Position numbers and translations under genes: made by a program. 54,844 bases of DNA, from the NCBI GenBank assembly GCA_024280015.1, contig JAJRQY010000162.1, positions 1-54,844 of the forward strand. The letters run 5' to 3'. The notes beneath the pieces were generated by a model that was given only the letters and a program-made list of their open reading frames with translations, was not told the DNA's origin and ran no database searches. Source of the DNA: Actinomycetes bacterium (GTDB taxonomy: Bacteria > Actinomycetota > Acidimicrobiia > Acidimicrobiales > SZUA-35). Shown piece by piece: positions 3,514 through 39,964 of the stretch (its first letter is position 1; the number at the start of each line of letters is the position of its first letter).

Positions 3514-5268
3514 GTGCGACGACGACTGCTTGTTCTACCTGTAGTAGCCACTCTGCTTCTGGGAGTGGGTGCTCCCGTGGGGGCCGAGACTGGCCCTGTA
3601 ACGACTGACCCTGTAACGACTGGTCCAGAGAACGAACTGGTTGTGATCGGTCAACCCACGCTGAGTGAGCCTCACATCGATTTTGTTGGTGAGCCGACTG
3701 GTGCAGATATCCAAGACGCTTTGGACTCCATCGCAACCATCGCGGCCGAAGACGTTTCGAGGCCAAGAGGCGCTGAGAACACAGTTCCGGAAGGTGCCCA
3801 ATTTGCTGCATCGGGTGATGACTTCACGGTGGACTATCGGACCACTGACATGCCCAATGAAGTGAAGCTCGTGGTCAATGCAGTCATGACCGAGTGGGCA
3901 AACGTGTTGGACATGAATGGTGCGGGTGTCCAAGTCGAGATCTTCTACCAGCCGATCGCTGGTGGAACCTTGGCCGCCACCGCCTCCTTCAGTGTTCCGG
4001 TGACCGAGGGGGGCGAGACCTTCAATATGCCAACCGCAGTGCTGAATGCTCGCAACGGTTCTGATGAATATCCTTATGACTCGGACCTGCAGGTGTATAT
4101 CAATTCGAACGAAACGTGGAACTATCAGACCACGGGCCCGATTCGGGCGTATGAGTACCATCTCTACACCACCATGTTGCATGAGATTGGTCACGGCCTG
4201 GGCTTCTGGGGTGATATCGATCCTCAGACAACAGCTTCGGATACTCCCAGTTCCTTTGACGTGCGGATCTACCACGACTTGGCCACCAGCGCTGAGGATG
4301 GTCCAGCCACTCCCGTCCGAACTTCGCAGAATCCGGTGACTGCAACCGGCCATTCCTGGTTCAAGAACCTGGATGGCACCTGGGAACGGATCCATGACCC
4401 AAGCAGTGGGTTCCAGGGGGGATCCTCGATGTCCCACTTCGACGAGTACGCCTATCGACGGTTTTTGTTTGATGCTGGGGCTCTCATGACGCCGGTTCAA
4501 AGCAGCGGGGAATTGATCTATACCGTGGACAATGTGACTCTGGGGGTCATGGAGGCAGTGGGCTGGAAGGTGAAGCGGCCACCACTCACCCCGGAGGTCT
4601 CTTCAGCGACCGTGAGTCCGGTTTCCGTCGACGTGGTTCTGGTCCCCAACACCCAGGTCGAGGGCCCGCCAGCAGTCCAGTGGGAAGTTTTGGTGAAGAG
4701 CGGGACGGAGACAGTGGGTTCGATCCAGGTTGCCGCCACCCAGCGATCAATCTCGGTACCGGTATTCTTGCCCGCGGGTGACTATGAAGTTGTGGTATTG
4801 GCCCGGGGGTCTGGCGGTTCGTCTGCCCCGACTTCAACCCCGATCCTTTCGACGAATGTGACCCCACCTGCCTATGACAACTGCCGTCAGGCGCCGGTGA
4901 ACCCGACCTTCGCCACCGAAGATGCAACCAAGGCATCGCTGTTCCGGCTGTACTGCTCGTACTTCCTGCGCAACCCCGACCCTGACGGCTTCGGCTATTG
5001 GTATCAGACGTTCTCCTCGGGAGCGGTTGGTCTCAACGAAATCTCGAACCTGTTTGCGACTAGCAAGGAGTTTGGTCTGACTTACGGATCACTAAGCAAT
5101 GAAGCATTCATCAACCTGGTCTACCGCAATGTGATGGAACGTCAAGCCGAACCGGAAGGCTTTCGCTACTGGCTTGGCAAGATCGAACAAGGTGTACTTA
5201 CCCGGGGAGAGGTTATGTTTTACTTCAGCCAATCAGAGGAGTTCCAGATCAAGACCGGAACCTTCTAG
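3514..5268 (+). CDS. Secreted zinc metalloprotease with C-terminal DUF4214 domain
   Basis: The GTG at 3514 gives a good Sec signal peptide: RRRLLVLPVVATLLLGVGAP, with a cleavage site near VGA-ET. In-frame codons further upstream overlap the preceding gene and encode no signal. The N-terminal part carries a short tandem duplication (PVTT repeated). The zinc site is LHEIGHGLGFWG, a metzincin-like HExGHxxGFW motif, followed by a region with SMSHFDEYAYRRFLFDAGALMTP. A beta-rich fibronectin III-like segment follows (about residues 355-445). The last 115 residues are a DUF4214 domain (LFRLYCSYFLRNPDPDGFGYWY and a second half ending YFSQSEEF), a module common in secreted actinobacterial proteins. 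The third zinc ligand and exact peptidase family are not certain. It is probably an exported protease; it stands alone between unrelated genes. Confidence 0.8.
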   Translation: MRRRLLVLPVVATLLLGVGAPVGAETGPVTTDPVTTGPENELVVIGQPTLSEPHIDFVGEPTGADIQDALDSIATIAAEDVSRPRGAENTVPEGAQFAASGDDFTVDYRTTDMPNEVKLVVNAVMTEWANVLDMNGAGVQVEIFYQPIAGGTLAATASFSVPVTEGGETFNMPTAVLNARNGSDEYPYDSDLQVYINSNETWNYQTTGPIRAYEYHLYTTMLHEIGHGLGFWGDIDPQTTASDTPSSFDVRIYHDLATSAEDGPATPVRTSQNPVTATGHSWFKNLDGTWERIHDPSSGFQGGSSMSHFDEYAYRRFLFDAGALMTPVQSSGELIYTVDNVTLGVMEAVGWKVKRPPLTPEVSSATVSPVSVDVVLVPNTQVEGPPAVQWEVLVKSGTETVGSIQVAATQRSISVPVFLPAGDYEVVVLARGSGGSSAPTSTPILSTNVTPPAYDNCRQAPVNPTFATEDATKASLFRLYCSYFLRNPDPDGFGYWYQTFSSGAVGLNEISNLFATSKEFGLTYGSLSNEAFINLVYRNVMERQAEPEGFRYWLGKIEQGVLTRGEVMFYFSQSEEFQIKTGTF

Positions 5269-9647: not shown

Positions 9648-10790
9648 CTAGGTGACCGTCTGGGCAATGAGGGGCACGCCTGGGCGGTAGGCCAGGTCAT
9701 GATAAGAATCAGCATCGAGAATGACGAGGTGCCCCTTGGCTCCCGGAGCTAGGTATCCGACGTCGTCGCGCCGCAGTGCAGCGGCCCCACCAAGGGTGAC
9801 GGCTTGGATGGCTTCTTCGATGGTCATGTGCATGTCTCGCACCGCTAGCGCGATGCAGAACGAGAGCGATGTGGTGTAGCTGGAACCGGGATTGCAGTTG
9901 GAAGCAATGGCAACGGAGGCTCCAGCGTCGATGACACGACGGGCATCAGGGTAGGGCTGGCGGGTGCTGAAATCGGTGGCCGGCAGGAAGGTAGCAACGG
10001 TGTCACTGGCGGCCAGCGCTTCGATGTCCTCGTCGCTGAGGTAGGTGCAATGGTCAACCGAGGCGCATCCCATCTCGACGGCGAGCTGAACACCTGGGCC
10101 GTGACCAAGCTGGTTCCCGTGGAGGCGGAGGCCAAGCCCAGCTTCCCTACCAGCGGTTAGAACCTGGCGGCACTGGCCCTCATCAAAGGCCCCGACCTCG
10201 CAGAAGGCATCGATCCATCGGGCGTGCGGCCTGGCTGCGGTCAACATGTCGCCGCAAACCAGATCGATGTAGTCATCTGCTCGGCCCGCGTACTCGCTGG
10301 GTAAGAGGTGGGCCCCGAGGAAGGTTGTCTCCGACGTGATCTCCTGGGCTAGTCGCAGGCTTCGGGCCTCGTCCTTCACGTTCAAGCCGTAGCCCGACTT
10401 GATCTCAATGGTGGTCGTTCCCGCTCGATGGGCCTCCTCAAGCCGGGCCTTGCTCAGGGCTCGCAGGTCGTCATCGCTGGCGGCTCGAGTGGCGGTGGTG
10501 GTGACCTGAATCCCACCACCATCGTAAGGCTGACCGGCCATGCGTTTGCTGAACTCTTCGGCCCGGTCTCCGGCGAAAACAAGATGAGTGTGAGAGGCAA
10601 CAAAGCCAGGCAGGACACAGCGTCCTTGGGCATCGATGCGTTCATCGGCGACCTGTCCGACACCGTCGACCGAGACCACTTCGCCGTTGGCAATAACGAC
10701 AGACACATCGCGGAGCAAACCAAGCGCCCCCTCGCCCATCTCCGGCCGGTTGGTGACCAGCAAGCCAATATTGTCGATAACTGTGGCCAT
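9648..10790 (-). CDS. hutI: Imidazolonepropionase
   Basis: HutI hydrolyses 4-imidazolone-5-propionate to N-formimino-L-glutamate, the third step of histidine degradation. The amidohydrolase metal motif appears as FVASHTHLVFAGDRAEEF, followed by the HutI-typical FSKRMAGQPYDGGGI and IEIKSGYGLN. Further metal and substrate residues are visible in LRLHGNQLGHGPGVQL and ASVDHCTYLSDEDI. The length of 380 residues is slightly short for the family (about 400) but nothing essential seems missing. The ATG at 10790 overlaps the last base of the hutF stop (TGATG); a TTG three bases upstream is an alternative that overlaps by four. It is the last gene of the operon. Confidence 0.95.
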   Translation of the reverse strand: MATVIDNIGLLVTNRPEMGEGALGLLRDVSVVIANGEVVSVDGVGQVADERIDAQGRCVLPGFVASHTHLVFAGDRAEEFSKRMAGQPYDGGGIQVTTTATRAASDDDLRALSKARLEEAHRAGTTTIEIKSGYGLNVKDEARSLRLAQEITSETTFLGAHLLPSEYAGRADDYIDLVCGDMLTAARPHARWIDAFCEVGAFDEGQCRQVLTAGREAGLGLRLHGNQLGHGPGVQLAVEMGCASVDHCTYLSDEDIEALAASDTVATFLPATDFSTRQPYPDARRVIDAGASVAIASNCNPGSSYTTSLSFCIALAVRDMHMTIEEAIQAVTLGGAAALRRDDVGYLAPGAKGHLVILDADSYHDLAYRPGVPLIAQTVT

Positions 10791-12178
10791 CAAACAATGC
10801 CTTCCGTGACCTGAGCAATGGATGAGTTGAGCTCATCGGCCACCTTGATGGACCGGTGTTTGCCGCCCTGGGCGAGGAGTCGGCCGCCAACGACGACACC
10901 GTCGACATCGCGGGGGCTGGCACCAAAGACCACCGAAGCGAGAGCAGTTTCTTGGCTCGTCCCTGCCATTCGAACCGAGTCGAGACGCACCGAAACGAAA
11001 TCGGCCAGCTGTCCAGCCCGAAGTAGTCCGCCCTTCCAGCCAAGGGACCGGTAGCCGTTTCCGGAGGCCATGGACATCAGTGCCCTCACCGAGTGGTTGC
11101 CTCGCACATGACTGAGGAGTCGTTCATTCAACTCGACGGCTCTGGACTCTTCAAACATATCGATGACGGCGTGGGAGTCACTACCCAGGCTGATGTCGAT
11201 TCCCGCTTGGGCGAACTGGGTGGAAGGTCCGATGCCGTCGGCCAGGTCCCGCTCGGTGGTTGGACAAAGGCAAACGCTGGACTCGGATTCCTTGAGCAGC
11301 TTGATGTCAGACCGGGTCATGTGGGTGGCGTGGATGGCCGTCAACTGCGGGGAAAGGACCCCAGCTTGTTGTAACAGCTCGGTCGGTGATGCAGCGAAGG
11401 CGTCCTGGCATTGCTCCTTCTCGGTCAAGGTTTCGGAGAGGTGAACGTGGAGGGGAAGGTCATGGTTGTTGGCAAAACCACCGACCTGTTCCATCTCGGT
11501 GACCGAGAGAGCTCGCACCGAGTGGATGGCGGCACCGATCCGTACCCGGTCTGAGTTCGTAGTAGTGAGGAGGTCACCCACCCGGTTCGACCAGTCTCTG
11601 ACCGATCCGTCACTGAACCGTTGCTGGCCGTCACCAATGGGCAGGTAACCACCGTTCGCTGAGGACCCGGCGATACCGCCATGAAGGTAGGCCGTGTCCA
11701 ACAGGGTGATGCGAAGGCCAGCATCATTGACAGCGGCGAGCAAGGCCAGACCCATGGCGTTTGGATCGCTGTACGGAGTGCCGTCGGGCTGATGGTGGAC
11801 ATAGTGGAACTCGCCAACTGTGGTGATCCCGGCCAGAACCATCTCGCCATAGACAGCCCGCGCCAGCTGATAATAGGAGTCAGGCGTCAGCTTCTGAGCG
11901 ACCGCGTACATCTGTTCTCGCCATGTCCAGAACGAGCCTGTCCCTTCATGGGTTCGGCCCCGTAAGGCCCGATGGAAGGCGTGGCTATGGGCATTGACTA
12001 GCCCAGGAATGGTGAGGCCCTGAAGCCGGGTCGCGTTGGAAGGCGGAGCGACGGTGAAGCTGACGGAGTCGATCAAACCGCCAGCGGTCTCAAGCAGGAC
12101 ACCTTGTTCGACCTGCTGGTCAATCAGGGCGTACTCGCACCAGAATGAACCGTCGGTGCTTGGCAAAACCTTGCTCAC
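10790..12178 (-). CDS. hutF: Formimidoylglutamate deiminase
   Basis: HutF converts N-formimino-L-glutamate to N-formyl-L-glutamate and ammonia, the branch of histidine catabolism that later needs a deformylase. The 462-residue protein has the amidohydrolase motif GLVNAHSHAFHRALRGRTHE, which is characteristic of HutF, then FWTWREQMYAVAQKLTP, GEFHYVHHQPDG, LPLHVHLSETLTEKEQC, and the Asp ligand in LGSDSHAVIDMFEE. Its start ATG overlaps the stop of the deformylase-like gene upstream (ATGA), and its stop overlaps the hutI start, so expression is translationally coupled on both sides. The presence of hutF rather than hutG-only or formiminoglutamase tells that this organism uses the five-step route. 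Confidence 0.95.
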   Translation of the reverse strand: MSKVLPSTDGSFWCEYALIDQQVEQGVLLETAGGLIDSVSFTVAPPSNATRLQGLTIPGLVNAHSHAFHRALRGRTHEGTGSFWTWREQMYAVAQKLTPDSYYQLARAVYGEMVLAGITTVGEFHYVHHQPDGTPYSDPNAMGLALLAAVNDAGLRITLLDTAYLHGGIAGSSANGGYLPIGDGQQRFSDGSVRDWSNRVGDLLTTTNSDRVRIGAAIHSVRALSVTEMEQVGGFANNHDLPLHVHLSETLTEKEQCQDAFAASPTELLQQAGVLSPQLTAIHATHMTRSDIKLLKESESSVCLCPTTERDLADGIGPSTQFAQAGIDISLGSDSHAVIDMFEESRAVELNERLLSHVRGNHSVRALMSMASGNGYRSLGWKGGLLRAGQLADFVSVRLDSVRMAGTSQETALASVVFGASPRDVDGVVVGGRLLAQGGKHRSIKVADELNSSIAQVTEGIV

Positions 12179-12774
12179 GAACCGACCCGTTCAACAAAGG
12201 CGGTGATGCGTTCGATGAAGGCATCCCGACCGTTGCGGTTGAACTCATCCCAAGTCGACAAGGTCGCTGGGTCCTTGACCCGGTCAACAAAGAGCACACC
12301 ATCCAGGTGATCACACTCGTGTTGCCAAGTCCCCGCGGTCAGTCCTCGCTTGACCTCGTCATGCAAGACACCATCACCGTCGTAATAGCGCACACCAATA
12401 TTGACTTGGCGTTCGACGTCACCCCGCAGTGGAACAGACAGGCAACCCTCATTCACCACCACGATCTTGGGGCCATCGGGGTCATCCACTTGGCCCGGCG
12501 TGAGGAAGGTGATGGTGGGGTTGATGACGATGGTCAGCGGCAGTCTCGGCTTGTAGGGGTAGCGGGGGTTGTCAGTCACTTCCATCACCGTGACTCGGAG
12601 GGGAACACCGATCTGATTAGCGGCAATACCGGCACCATTTGCGGCCCGCATGGTGTCGACCAGGTCGCCAATCAGGGCTTGGGTCTCGTCCGATTTGATC
12701 TCATCGACGGGAACCTCGGTGGCCATCTGTCGAAGTACGGGATGGCCGATCTGGAGAATGTCACGTACTGTCAT
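12175..12774 (-). CDS. Peptide-deformylase family protein in the hut operon
   Basis: All three motifs of peptide deformylase are present: GAGIAANQIG (residues 47-56), EGCLSVP with metal ligand Cys111, and HECDHLDG with His152, Glu153 and His156. The length of 199 residues is normal. Ordinary def genes sit beside fmt and remove the N-formyl group of nascent proteins. This one lies inside the hut operon, coupled to hutF by ATGA, and there is no hutG (N-formylglutamate deformylase) in the operon. HutF makes N-formyl-L-glutamate, so this protein may hydrolyse that compound; this is inference. The ATG at 12774 is the end point of the five-unit overlapping minigene array described separately, so it has no free ribosome-binding site of the usual kind. 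Confidence 0.9.
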   Translation of the reverse strand: MTVRDILQIGHPVLRQMATEVPVDEIKSDETQALIGDLVDTMRAANGAGIAANQIGVPLRVTVMEVTDNPRYPYKPRLPLTIVINPTITFLTPGQVDDPDGPKIVVVNEGCLSVPLRGDVERQVNIGVRYYDGDGVLHDEVKRGLTAGTWQHECDHLDGVLFVDRVKDPATLSTWDEFNRNGRDAFIERITAFVERVGS

Positions 12775-12844
12775 TTTGTTGGCCTCATTTGGATGGCCTC
12801 ATCTTGCTGATCTCATTTCGACAGTCTCATTCTGGCGGCCTCAT
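12775..12844 (-). repeat. Five 14-bp tandem units forming overlapping ATGA minigenes
   Basis: Between the hutU stop and the deformylase start, the - strand carries exactly five 14-base units, each beginning ATGAG, at 12844, 12830, 12816, 12802 and 12788; the sixth ATGA, at 12774, is the deformylase start. Each unit reads as a complete minigene of five sense codons: MRPPE, MRLSK, MRSAR, MRPSK and MRPTK. Each TGA stop overlaps the next ATG as ATGA, because 14 bases plus one equals five codons. Positions 1-5 are identical in all units, whereas positions 6-14 have diverged. The first ATG comes five bases after the hutU TAG. Ribosomes leaving hutU could re-initiate stepwise through the array. Confidence 0.9.
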
Positions 12845-12849
12845 CGTGT

Positions 12850-14529
12850 CTAGGTTTCGGTCATGGGGATGCGCACCCCGCGCTCGGCGGCAACCTCATT
12901 GGCCCGTTCATAGCCAGCATCCGCATGGCGGATAACACCGGTCCCCGGATCATTGGTCAGGACTCGTTCCAGCTTCTCGCTGGCCAGGTCGGTCCCGTCA
13001 GCCACGCTGACTTGACCGGAGTGGATGGAACGGCCAATGCCGACCCCGCCGCCGTGGTGGATACTTACCCAGGTCGCCCCCGAGGAGGTATTGAGCATGG
13101 CGTTGAGTAGGGGCCAGTCGGCGATGGCATCCGAACCATCGATCATACCCTCGGTCTCACGGTAGGGCGAAGCTACCGAGCCCGAATCCAGATGGTCGCG
13201 ACCAATGGCAACTGGAGCGGAAATCTCACCCGAGGCCACCATCTGGTTGAAGCGCAGGCCAAGCCGGTGTCGCTCGCCGTATCCCAGCCAGCAGATGCGG
13301 GCGGGTAGTCCCTGGAATTCGACCCGTTCCTGGGCCATCTTGATCCAGCGGTGTAGGCCTTCGTCGTCAGGGAATTCTTCTAACACGGCTCGATCGGTGG
13401 CGGCAATGTCTGCCGGGTCCCCAGACAGTGCGGCCCAGCGAAATGGCCCCTTGCCTTCGCAGAACAGAGGCCGGATATAGGCGGGGACGAATCCGGGGTA
13501 GTCCAGTGCCCGGTCATAGCCGTGCAGTTTGGCTTCGGCCCGCAGGCTGTTGCCATAGTCAAAGACTTCCGAGCCTGCATCCATGAAACCAACCATGGCT
13601 TCACAGTGGCTGGCCATGGCTGCTCGAGAGCGGCGGATGTACTCATCGGGATTGTTGGTCCGCATCTCATGAGCGGCTTCATCAGACAGGTCGTTGGGCC
13701 AGTAGGTCATGGGGTCATGGGCCGATGTCTGGTCGGTGACGATGTCGGCATCGAAGTTCAACTCCAGCAGCTTGGGGAAGATGTCAGCGCAGTTTCCCTT
13801 GAAAGCAATGCTGAGCCCCCGTTTGGCCGCCTTGGCTTCGCTGGCCATCTTCATGGCCTCTTCGAGGGTGGCTGCTTGCACATCGACATAGCGGGTTTCT
13901 AGTCGCCGATCGATACTGCGCTGATCGACGTCAATACAGAGGGCGACGCCATCGTTCATGGTGACGGCCAGGGGCTGAGCGCCGCCCATCCCGCCCAAGC
14001 CTCCGGTGAGGGTGATGGTTCCGGCCAGGGTTCCGCCAAAGCGCTTTTTGGCGATAGCGGCGAAGGTCTCATACGTTCCCTGAAGGATCCCTTGGGTGCC
14101 GATATAGATCCAGGAGCCTGCCGTCATCTGGCCGTACATGGTCAGATCCATGTGCTCCAGCTTGCGGAACTCATCCCAGGTGGCCCAATCGGGAACGAGG
14201 TTGGAGTTGGCGATGATGGTGCGGGGCGCCCACTCGTGTGTCCGGAACACACCGACCGGCTTGCCTGACTGCACCAACATGGTTTCGTCATGCTTCAAGC
14301 TGCGAAGGGTGCGGGTGATGGCGTCGAATGCTTCCCAAGATCGGGCGGCTCGACCGGTGCCGCCATAGACCACCAGCTTGTCGGGATTCTCAGCATTGGC
14401 TGGATCCAGGTTGTTGTGGAACATGCGCAATACGGCTTCTTGTTGCCAACCCTGGCAGGAAATGTCTAGGCCAGTTGCAGCCCTGACTGGTCGTGGACCG
14501 GAGGTGCTTGACGCTGTGGCTGAGTTCAT
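12850..14529 (-). CDS. hutU: Urocanate hydratase
   Basis: HutU adds water to urocanate to give 4-imidazolone-5-propionate, using tightly bound NAD. The family is plain from [33 protein letters not shown], the NAD-binding region [19 protein letters not shown], and the C-terminal [20 protein letters not shown]. With the ATG at 14529 the protein is 559 residues, the usual size; an in-frame extension to 14637 would overlap hutH and adds non-family sequence. It follows hutH by 14 bases and precedes the minigene array by five. No obvious ribosome-binding site precedes the ATG, consistent with coupling to hutH. Confidence 0.96.
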
Positions 14530-14543
14530 TGTTTGCTCGCTGA

Positions 14544-16076
14544 CTAGAGAAGGGGCCCGGAAACGGCTTCGATATTGCTGACAAAGTCTGGCCGGCTGAT
14601 GATCGTGTTTACCGCAGCAAGTTCGGGTGATAGCCATCGGTCCGAACCGAGGCCCGGCACCTCAGCTCGAATCTGTTGAAGGGCAGCCACGGTTGGCGGG
14701 GATGCTTGCAGCGGTGCTCGGCATTCGATTGCTCGGGTGCCGGCGGTGATTTCAACGGCCAAGATGTGACCCAGGTTCTGGACCGCCTCACGCAGTTTTC
14801 GACAGGCTCCCCATCCCATCGATACATGGTCTTCTTGCATGGCGCTGGTCGGGATGGTGTCAACGCTGGCCGGGACCGCAAGCCGCCGGTTGACTGCCAC
14901 CATTCCTGCCTGGGTGTAGTGCGCAATCATGAGACCGGAGTCGACTCCGGGGTCACCGGCAAGGAAGGGGGGCAAACCGTGAGAGCGACCAACATCGAGC
15001 ATTCGGTCGGTCCGTCGTTCGCACAGGGCTCCCAGATCAGCGATTGATACGGCTAAGAAATCAGCGACTTGGGCAACCGGTGCACCATGGAAGTTGCCGC
15101 ACGATTCGACCCGTCCGTCGGGCAGGATCATGGGATTGTCGATGGCAGAGGCGAGTTCTCGCTCGGCGATGAGGTTGGCGTGGGCGATGGTGTCTCGGAC
15201 TGCTCCGTGCACGGCTGGGGTGCAACGCAACGAGTAGGCGTCCTGAACCCGACTGTCGCCCTCCTGATGGCTGGCCATGATTTCGGAGTTAGCCAGCAAA
15301 GCCCGCAGATTGGTGGCACTATCGGCCTGACCGAGCTGGGGTCGCAGCGCCTGCAAGTCAGCGGCGAAGACCCGGTCGGTTCCCATCAATCCCTCGATGG
15401 TGAGGGCGGCAGCAATGTCGGCCACCTTGAGCAGGTGTTGCAAGTCAGCCAGGGCCAACAACAACATGCCAAGCATGCCGTCAGTACCGTTGATCAGAGC
15501 AAGCCCTTCTTTGGCCCGAAGCTTCACCGGCTCAATGCCGGCCTTCCCCAAGGCTGCGGCAACCGGTTGTCGTTGACCATGTTCGTCGATGATGTCGCCC
15601 TCGCCAATGATGCCCATGGCGCAGTGGGCAAGGGGAGCGAGGTCACCGGAAGCGCCGAGTGAACCATGCTCATGCACCGCTGGCGTGATACCGGCGTTCA
15701 ACATGGCGATGATGGTCTGGACCACGATGGGGCGCACACCGGAATAGCCCCGAGCCAGGCTGCGAGCTCGAAGCGCCATGGTCGCCCGAACAACTTCACC
15801 TTCGACCAAGGGCCCCATTCCCGCGGCATGGGAGCGCACAAGGGCGACCTGTAATTCGGCCGAGCGCTCTGGGGGGATTGGTGTGTCGGCAAGGGCGCCA
15901 AAACCAGTGGTTACTCCATAGACAGATTCCCCCTCGTCAAGGATTCGATCGATGATGGCGGCACTGGATGTGATGGCGTCGATTGCTGCATCGTCCAGTG
16001 CTAGATCGGCGCCGTGGCGAGCAATTGCGACAAGATCGTTAGCGGCAAGCCCGGTGTTGGAGAGTTGAACAGTCAC
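14544..16076 (-). CDS. hutH: Histidine ammonia-lyase
   Basis: HutH deaminates L-histidine to urocanate, the first step of the pathway. The self-formed MIO cofactor triad Ala142-Ser143-Gly144 lies in [15 protein letters not shown]. Other family landmarks are [12 protein letters not shown] near residue 53, [14 protein letters not shown], and [18 protein letters not shown]. The length is 510 residues, as expected. The chosen start is GTG at 16076. The bases before it on this strand are pyrimidine-rich (CCCTCCTC) and offer no Shine-Dalgarno sequence, so the message may be leaderless or start near here. It is the first gene of the hut operon; the upstream 170 bases should hold the operon promoter, but I cannot place it. 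Confidence 0.96.
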
Positions 16077-38590: not shown

Positions 38591-39964
38591 CTAGCCGTTG
38601 GCAGCGTGTGCTGCTACCAGAGCTGTTTGCAAGTTGGCGACATCCTTGTCAATCAGGAACAGACCGACTGCAGAGTCAATCTCAGACTTCCAGGAATCGT
38701 TAGCGACAACACCATGGGTCAGGCTGCCAACAACAGTGTTGGAGGCCCAATCGTCCATGGCGGACAGCAGGTACTCGCCGTACAGAGAACGGTCAGCGTC
38801 ATTGCGTGCCGGGATGGAACCCTTGACCGGGTTGAACGCATCCTGGCCTTGGTTGGATCCGGCGACGGTCAACCAAGCAATGGCGGCATCCCGGTTGGGT
38901 GCGCCCTTGGCCAGCACGAAACTGTCGGAGAGGAACTGGAAGACACCGTCAGAACCCGGAGTGGCAGACCACACATAGTCCGTTCCCGGTTCCTTGCCCA
39001 GCTCACGGAAGAAGCCTTCTTGCCAGTCGCCCATGATGTTGAAGGCAGCGTTCCCGTCAAGTACCAGCTGTCCAGCATCCTGCCAGGACAAGCTGGATGA
39101 GTCGGAGTTGGTGTAGCCGAGGACGGTGTTGTAGTCCTCAAGTGCCTTAGTCACCTCAGCAGAATCCCAAGCGACGGATCCGTCCCAAAGGCCGTTCCAG
39201 GAATCAGGTCCCATTGAAGCCAACATGATGGTTTCCATCAGATGGAGCGATGTCCACTGTTCGCCCATGGCCAGAGGTGCATCCATTCCACCACTCTTGA
39301 GCGTCTCCATAGCGGCGATGAACTCATCAAGGCTGGTTGGCATCTCGATGCCAGCATCGCTGAGCACGGTTGGGTTGGACCACAGCACGTTTGCTCGGTG
39401 GATGTTGACGGGGACGGAGTAGATGTTGCCGTCCTTGGAGATGAGCGGGATCAAGGTTTCGGGCATGACGTCGAGCCAGCCCTGCTCGTCGTAGAGGAAG
39501 TTGAGTGGTTCGATCTGGTCAGCAGCGACGTAGGTGCCAATGAGTTCTTGACCGGCGTGACCCTGCCAGCTATCTGGCGGGTCGCCAGCTTGCAAGCGTG
39601 AAGCCAGTACCGCTCGGGCATTGGTTCCTGCGCCACCAGCCACGGCAGAGTTCTCGAAGGTGATTCCAGGGTCGGTCGAGCCGAAGACCTCAATCATGGC
39701 GTCAAGACCTGCGGCCTCACCGCCGCCGGTCCACCAGGAGAAGACCTCGACGGACCCGCCGGCGGTTTCTTCGTCGGTGGTGTCGTCGGTGGTGTCGTCG
39801 GTGGTGTCGTCGGTGGTGTCGTCGGTGGTGTCGTCGGACCCTACTGCGGTGCTGTCGGATCCTGATTCATCACCAGCGTCACCTCCGCTGCTGCCTCCGC
39901 AAGCACTGGCCACGAGGGCTAGGGCTGCGAAGAGACTCATCAGTTTGAGCATTCGATTTCGCAT
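38591..39964 (-). CDS. Sugar-binding lipoprotein of ABC importer (family 1 solute-binding protein)
   Basis: This 457-residue extracellular solute-binding protein begins with a lipoprotein signal (LMSLFAALALVASACGG). A flexible acidic linker made of repeated DDTT follows, encoded by a 12-bp tandem repeat. The mature part begins VEVFSWWTGGGEAAGLDAMI and continues with RAVLASRLQAGDPPDSWQGH and YSVPVNIHRANVLWSNPTVL, a pattern I associate with glucose/mannose/galactose-type binding proteins (GtsA-like). It is the first gene of the - strand transcript and lies divergent from the DeoR regulator, one of whose candidate operators is 44 bases upstream. Confidence 0.9.
   Translation of the reverse strand: MRNRMLKLMSLFAALALVASACGGSSGGDAGDESGSDSTAVGSDDTTDDTTDDTTDDTTDDTTDEETAGGSVEVFSWWTGGGEAAGLDAMIEVFGSTDPGITFENSAVAGGAGTNARAVLASRLQAGDPPDSWQGHAGQELIGTYVAADQIEPLNFLYDEQGWLDVMPETLIPLISKDGNIYSVPVNIHRANVLWSNPTVLSDAGIEMPTSLDEFIAAMETLKSGGMDAPLAMGEQWTSLHLMETIMLASMGPDSWNGLWDGSVAWDSAEVTKALEDYNTVLGYTNSDSSSLSWQDAGQLVLDGNAAFNIMGDWQEGFFRELGKEPGTDYVWSATPGSDGVFQFLSDSFVLAKGAPNRDAAIAWLTVAGSNQGQDAFNPVKGSIPARNDADRSLYGEYLLSAMDDWASNTVVGSLTHGVVANDSWKSEIDSAVGLFLIDKDVANLQTALVAAHAANG
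39771..39837 (-). repeat. 12-bp tandem repeat inside the binding-protein gene
   Basis: The + strand unit TCGTCGGTGGTG is repeated five times exactly plus seven bases. On the coding strand it yields the Asp-Asp-Thr-Thr linker between the lipid anchor and the binding domain. Because the unit is a multiple of three, slippage changes the linker length and keeps the frame. Confidence 0.95.

Follow-up and report, generated by a model that had tools for sequence, protein, structure and literature searches.

In the window, that is, the whole 54,844-nucleotide stretch of DNA that was analyzed, the genes hutU and def (a peptide-deformylase-like gene) are joined by a tandem array of very short open reading frames, in which each stop codon overlaps the next start codon. 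This chain is probably a slippage product that arose at a translationally coupled junction and was filtered by its length, and judging from the arrangement of its starts and stops it would relay ribosomes from hutU to def. Comparable chains built of other sequences were revealed at many other gene junctions, and among the matches listed their periods and phases are biased.

Table 1. Positions of the array and of the surrounding hut genes in the window.
Feature	Position	Strand	Family match or remark
hutH, histidine ammonia-lyase	14544..16076	-	TIGR01225; first gene of the run
hutU, urocanate hydratase	12850..14637	-	Pfam and TIGR01228; ORF as listed
hutU TAG stop	12850..12852	-	5 nt ahead of the first ATG of the array
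Array of five 14-base ATGAG-N9 units (five 5-codon mini-ORFs)	12775..12844	-	every TGA overlaps the following ATG
Unit 1 of the array	12844-12831	-	
Unit 5 of the array	12788-12775	-	
Sixth ATGA	12771..12774	-	stop of mini-ORF 5 overlapping the start codon of def
def, peptide-deformylase-like gene	12175..12774	-	PF01327, NF001159; downstream of the array
GTGA overlap, def stop and hutF start	12175..12178	-	next overlapping junction, without an array
hutF, formimidoylglutamate deiminase	10790..12178	-	NF006681, TIGR02022
hutI, imidazolonepropionase	9648..10790	-	TIGR01224; ATG overlaps the hutF stop (TGATG)

The gene order of the run is hutH-hutU-def-hutF-hutI (Table 1), and hutG is absent among these five genes. 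For hutU, the ATG at position 14529 is a likelier start than the listed one, because the TIGR01228 match begins at residue 50. The def product contains the sequences GAGIAANQIG, EGCLSVP and HECDH, which we take to agree with the deformylase motifs. Encoded beside hutF, it may be the N-formylglutamate deformylase of the pathway. A second deformylase-like gene, 39% identical to it, was found in the same genome [G000 C34, L088]. Another tandem repeat of the window, a 12-base one at positions 39771–39857, lies in a 470-codon minus-strand frame that looks by eye like a solute-binding lipoprotein; it encodes a DDTT repeat near the N-terminus and is an ordinary coding repeat.

Read along the minus strand, the units of the array follow each other in the order ATGAGGCCGCCAGA ATGAGACTGTCGAA ATGAGATCAGCAAG ATGAGGCCATCCAA ATGAGGCCAACAAA, after which def begins with ATGACAGTACG. 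The peptides of the mini-ORFs, from unit 1 to unit 5, are MRPPE, MRLSK, MRSAR, MRPSK and MRPTK. The array was independently detected by TRF (12771–12844, period 14, 5.3 copies, 70% matches), and the three-unit ATGA pattern has four matches in the window, while its mean in 100 dinucleotide shuffles is 0.00. Thus, the five ATGAG units of period 14 and the ATGA-linked five-codon ORFs described in the initial annotation were confirmed by the minus-strand reading, by TRF and by the shuffles. Its placement of the array between hutU and the deformylase gene was also correct, but the strand has to be changed, since everything lies on the minus strand. Two further details needed correction. The gap is not filled exactly from the hutU stop: 5 nt (ACACG) intervene before the first ATG, whereas the stop/start overlap is 4 nt at all five units and at the def start. 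Nor is ATGAG the only constant part of the units, since C at unit position 11 forms a sixth constant column. Three units of the array suffice to close all three reading frames. The constancy of ATGA within the array has a probability of about 0.015 for four named columns and of 0.17 for any four adjacent columns. This is weak evidence when taken alone, and the argument therefore depends on comparing genomes.

In total, we analyzed 80 def-like loci, 75 of which have a hutU match at a distance of no more than 2.5 kb; in 53 loci the two genes are adjacent. As scored, these 53 junctions comprise 17 direct overlaps, 22 plain gaps, eight junctions bridged by mini-ORFs and six in which def is not reached. 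Among the last six, L019, L035 and L069 look like direct overlaps whose start was missed by tblastn, and L020 is a longer overlap, so that the failures left are L050 and L058; in L050 a second ATG in the gap runs, by eye, to a TGA overlapping def. Another start on the hutU stop is present in 10 loci, and in eight of these, by hand count, complete in-phase mini-ORF chains extend to def (the script gave eight bridged and six not; the start positions of L057 and L080 were set by hand in the scoring). One third would be expected from frame alone, and the corresponding probability, calculated by hand, is about 0.003; six of the eight bridged loci form one clade, and perhaps three independent events are represented. 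In this clade (L039, L041, L042, L045, L051, L064), with def proteins 81–91% identical, the junction is spanned by a single ORF of 7 or 10 codons; the encoded peptides have diverged and the length differs by 9 nt, with the phase kept.

The presence of the array itself is specific to lineages. In the same-genus relative L006, which is identical in sequence to L087, hutU and def simply overlap at ATGA, with no units at all. It is followed among the matches by Ilumatobacter and other MAGs of the Acidimicrobiales, so that the order considered below is presumably this one. Besides the window, a three-unit period-14 array was found in only one of the 80 def loci, L008 (Ilumatobacter), which has a chain of its own, MKAAQ, MRPAR and MKRARRS. 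Thus, when the junction was compared in relatives, the expectation that the array would be conserved across related hut operons failed, and a dedicated hut function therefore loses ground.

Some other elements were noticed at these loci. The palindrome CAAAGTTGTG-N5-CACAACTTTG is present in two Ilumatobacteraceae loci, at positions 165, 4186 and 4959 of L012 and at positions 939 and 4959 of L025. In L025, the copy at the def junction is contained in a 24-codon ORF bridging hutU and def, and in L012 two of its copies flank an ORF situated between these genes; possibly, it is a mobile hairpin element. Upstream of def in L073 (before position 5001), a longer tandem duplication of some tens of bases, including a copy of the def start, was seen by eye.

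The chains are not peculiar to the hut operon; comparable ones were revealed at many other junctions. The pattern (ATGA N10)x3 ATGA was found in 11 of 39 genomes of the family (backwards control, 2/39) and in 22 of 198 genomes of the order (backwards control, 4/198), the two samples overlapping by seven genomes. In the genome studied here, two ABC-2 permease genes are likewise joined by a period-14 chain [C120], a kynureninase gene is preceded by one of period 17 [C59], and there is also a GTGA array with a final start opening 95 codons [C48]. A scan of the phylum with the period-14 pattern gave matches in seven of 296 genomes: two of 22 inside the order, one of them being this genome, and five of 274 outside it. 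Four of the five outside matches end on a start of 100 or more codons. Chains of this type thus extend beyond the order, and they look commoner within it by the count of 22/198, less clearly so by the 2/22 of the phylum scan.

In many genomes, the chains precede genes with metabolic, transport and regulatory functions. Among the matches listed, there are 44 ORFs downstream of period-14 and period-17 chains; 30 of them, mostly the longer ones, were tested, and 29 of the 30 match Pfam. In the 42 junction arrays, the stop of the upstream gene is located on a TGA within the array in 27 cases, within 14 nt before the array in seven and farther away in six, and the remaining two have no upstream ORF of 60 codons. 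Period-14 chains at the junction of genes for PTS enzyme I and a PRD-domain regulator were found in genomes from two different families [L094, L112]; either common ancestry or repeated origin may account for this shared junction type. The recurrence of chains at kynureninase and CNNM genes was discarded as evidence, because the upstream genes differ.

Two further scans were made, each at a single period. Chains based on GTGA were found in 24 of 198 genomes, compared with 17 of 198 for the backwards control, and the last start opens 100 or more codons in only 11 of 27 arrays; they give weak support to junction chains, because the genome count is close to that of the control. In viral contigs (IMG/VR), scanned at period 14, the pattern was present in at least 119 stretches. 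Among the matches listed (80 loci, L235–L314), there are 105 arrays, 95 of which have similar units; 62 of the 95 consist of 7-base repeats (ATGAAGG, ATGAGTT and others), and seven of the 95 end on a start of 100 or more codons.

To describe the phase of the repeats, we used several periods. The number of genomes of the order with a match (n = 198; backwards control in parentheses) was 5 (1) at period 11, 6 (5) at period 13, 22 (4) at period 14, 53 (16) at period 15, 9 (4) at period 16, 17 (3) at period 17 and 5 (2) at period 20. Two of the nine genomes with a period-16 match hold 8-base repeats, and inspection by eye suggests that most of the period-15 matches (20 loci classified) are in-frame coding repeats or repeats of low complexity. 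The context of each array was judged by the length of the ORF opened by its last ATG, a criterion that leans on ORF length in GC-rich DNA, and arrays readable on both strands were counted once per strand. Among the matches listed, the array ends on a start of 100 or more codons in 20/27 cases at period 14 (27/36 with the family sample included) and in 15/19 at period 17, in 2/7 at period 13 and 2/11 at period 16, and in 2/5, 7/20 and 2/6 at periods 11, 15 and 20. The sum for periods 14 and 17 is 35/46 against 4/18 for periods 13 and 16 (Fisher P = 1.3e-4, among the matches listed; nine period-14 arrays known from the family search alone are excluded from this comparison). Of the initial proposal that the starts and the phase are under selection, the part concerning phase is therefore supported by these counts, while the constancy of ATGA inside the array adds little. 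Since 3n+2 arrays are located on gene starts far more often than those of periods 13 and 16, stepping of ribosomes by termination-reinitiation is the likely reason for the kept phase.

The 3n+2 rule alone does not account for the excess of periods 14 and 17 over 11 and 20 (5 and 5 of 198 genomes). A census of tandem repeats that did not depend on ATGA was made in 1,095,131 bases (the window, the 80 def loci and 20 stretches of the same genome). It revealed 94 repeats with periods from 8 to 30, distributed over phases 0, 1 and 2 as 76, 5 and 13; only three are at gene starts, a sample too small for the phase rule. Periods 9, 12 and 15 are represented by 25, 21 and 18 repeats, and a preference of slippage for certain lengths is therefore unlikely to be the only cause of the predominance of 14 and 17. 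Our guess is that a minimum length of the mini-ORF for reinitiation lies behind it.

To get insight into the origin of the units, we compared them with their own junctions and with each other. Comparison of units from different arrays revealed that: (i) the last unit and the start of its own gene agree in 3.45 of 6 positions against 1.85 in permuted pairings (0 of 2000 permutations; 42 junction arrays); (ii) the tail of the first unit matches its own upstream flank in 4.05 of 6 positions against 1.67 (0 of 2000 permutations; the same 42 arrays); while (iii) the first units of 27 period-14 junction arrays are similar to each other in 3.05 of 10 positions against 2.87 (sd 0.07) with shuffled columns, which is a slight excess without a common unit. 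The units thus resemble their own junctions and differ between loci, and therefore the chains are local tandem duplications and not copies of one mobile element. The units of the window share only ATGA with the def start. As they have diverged and no longer resemble it, and as the hutU stop is 5 nt off the chain instead of overlapping with it, the origin of this array has to be judged from the others: probably, it is an old, diverged tandem duplication. In view of the general resemblance of units to their junctions and of the same-genus relative without an array, the initial view is not supported insofar as it rejects an origin by slippage.

From these data the following scheme can be proposed. 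The junction would have started as a hutU TGA overlapping the def ATG, as it does in the same-genus relative, and would have been expanded by tandem duplication, after which the units would have diverged through point mutation. A ribosome ending hutU would reinitiate at the first ATG, translate five codons, terminate on the TGA overlapping the next ATG and repeat this until it reaches def. With a period of 3n+2, the TGA of each mini-ORF would overlap the next start and the coupling would be handed on; with a period of 3n, extra copies would be an in-frame extension of the next protein; with a period of 3n+1, the last upstream ATG would read out of frame past the gene start and the coupling would be broken. 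Duplications would thus tend to survive only at 3n+2 or 3n, and this filter on length, not a dedicated regulatory design, would explain the exact phase. The scheme implies that the mini-ORFs would be translated, that coupling would be the selected trait and that some downstream translation would be lost at each relay step. A regulatory role for the chain is possible.

A stronger form of such a role would be an adaptive rheostat, in which the number of relay steps determines, probably by lowering it, how much product the downstream gene yields in relation to the upstream gene, and slippage tunes the number of copies without a risk to the frame. It would fit the presence of chains ahead of metabolic, transport and regulatory genes in many genomes, the constancy of ATGA in every unit of a diverged array and two cases of one junction carrying chains in genomes of different genera or families, namely hutU-def (the window, L008) and PTS enzyme I–PRD regulator (L094, L112). 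A precedent is a minigene altering downstream output, as far as it is described in the accessible part of the source (PMC8708949). However, the presence of chains is sporadic, with none at the junction of the same-genus relative and a three-unit array in one of 80 def loci, and the repeated use of the same junctions may only mean that few conserved junctions are coupled. We therefore regard the rheostat as unlikely. Equally doubtful is its extension to a general, continually re-born device. According to this idea, any coupled junction may give rise to a chain whose ORFs have 5 or 6 codons, and the unit of 14 or 17 nt would be set by the shortest ORF allowing efficient termination-reinitiation. 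The chain would catch ribosomes in any frame and re-register them for the next gene, and its slippage-variable copy number would serve as a rheostat of operon stoichiometry without a frameshift cost.

Alternatively, the array might be a repeated ribosome-binding site, in which each ATGAGG would place GAGG 8 nt before the next ATG and thus create a multiple landing site for 30S subunits. In the window, GAGG is indeed located 8 nt ahead of the def ATG and ahead of two other unit boundaries. Across the 42 junction arrays, however, a Shine-Dalgarno 4-mer was found ahead of 10 of 42 gene ATGs and 28 of 107 internal ATGs against a background of 17%, which makes this explanation very improbable. We give as little credence to neutral slippage devoid of translational meaning, with a coincidental phase. 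The units do resemble slippage products and their presence is lineage-specific, but the pattern is less frequent at periods 13 and 16, where most arrays lie off gene starts (4/18 on them, among the matches listed), and in one clade the mini-ORFs between hutU and def remain in phase despite a length difference of 9 nt. Finally, the array was initially suggested to offer repeated AUGAG sites to a HutP-like RNA-binding protein or to sense Arg-tRNA through AGG/AGA, and its position in a hut operon and the rarity of these codons, noted at the outset and borne out here (8 of 142 Arg codons in hutH, hutU, def, hutF and hutI), would agree with that, but such functions are extremely unlikely, as unit sequences differ from locus to locus with little in common, other chains use other second codons and the RNA fold of the array is not unusual (z = -1.07).

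The preferred reading, a length-filtered slippage product relaying ribosomes, can be compared with several known systems, of which the closest are the mycobacterial interspersed repetitive units (MIRUs). Classic MIRUs are 53, 77 and 101 bp long, all of them 3n+2, and insert at DTGA sites. The array in the window would be similar in having mini-ORFs linked to the following gene through a -4 (ATGA) overlap. The differences are in the size of the units (40–100 bp in MIRUs; 14 bp in the window, 14 and 17 bp at other loci) and in their nature, since MIRU units are shared across loci and are apparently mobile, whereas the units described here differ by locus and arose in place. In the available parts of the sources, MIRUs are described as apparently mobile junction repeats that insert at start codons and contain an internal ORF coupled at a -4 overlap (PMC12548453); they form tandem copies, the number of which varies between isolates at some loci, and a junction filled with repeats in the M. 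tuberculosis complex spans just a few base pairs in other mycobacteria (PMC2734929).

Coupled gene pairs using termination-reinitiation provide another parallel, in that ATGA or TGATG overlaps, which would serve the same purpose, are located at the unit boundaries and at the def-hutF and hutF-hutI junctions. In the pairs as described in the accessible text (PMC6728339, PMC10666635), two real genes are joined, whereas here a run of five-codon ORFs is interposed. According to the same partly available sources, coupling was strict in 13 of 14 overlapping pairs tested (PMC6728339), and reinitiation drops steeply with distance (PMC10666635). For two E. coli pairs, the terminal 15 nt of the upstream gene were sufficient (PMC10666635, as far as accessible); this length, the smallest one reported in that work, is close to the 14-nt unit. 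The TAACTGA heptamer repeats of Beggiatoaceae, many of which are located within several nucleotides upstream of start codons, with a proposed translational action, are likewise short direct repeats near starts; as presented in the accessible part of that work (PMC4679880), they are one fixed heptamer with neither a start codon in the unit nor a chain.

Regulation of the HutP type would imply that the hut operon retains repeated RNA sites, whereas a three-unit array was found in one of 80 def loci and the chains of other operons differ in sequence. Bacterial minigenes, such as lambda bar, resemble the mini-ORFs as very short ORFs upstream of a gene, a likeness that in our case concerns the predicted ORF structure. 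The minigene mg2 of axe-txe, according to the accessible text of its description (PMC8708949), is a single two-codon ORF that ends 15 nt before txe and alters txe output in cis, in contrast to the tandem ATGA-linked chain described here; minigene toxicity is said there to decrease with minigene length. No description of short 3n+2 start/stop tandem repeats at gene junctions was found in the openly readable literature.

For operon junctions, these findings suggest a rule of growth, according to which insertions persist where the chain of overlapping starts and stops still enters the next gene. This rule predicts which repeats at junctions do no harm. In addition, the chains are a natural series of serial reinitiation events that could be used to measure the efficiency of reinitiation. 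They also show that an architecture similar to that of MIRUs can arise via slippage instead of transposition.
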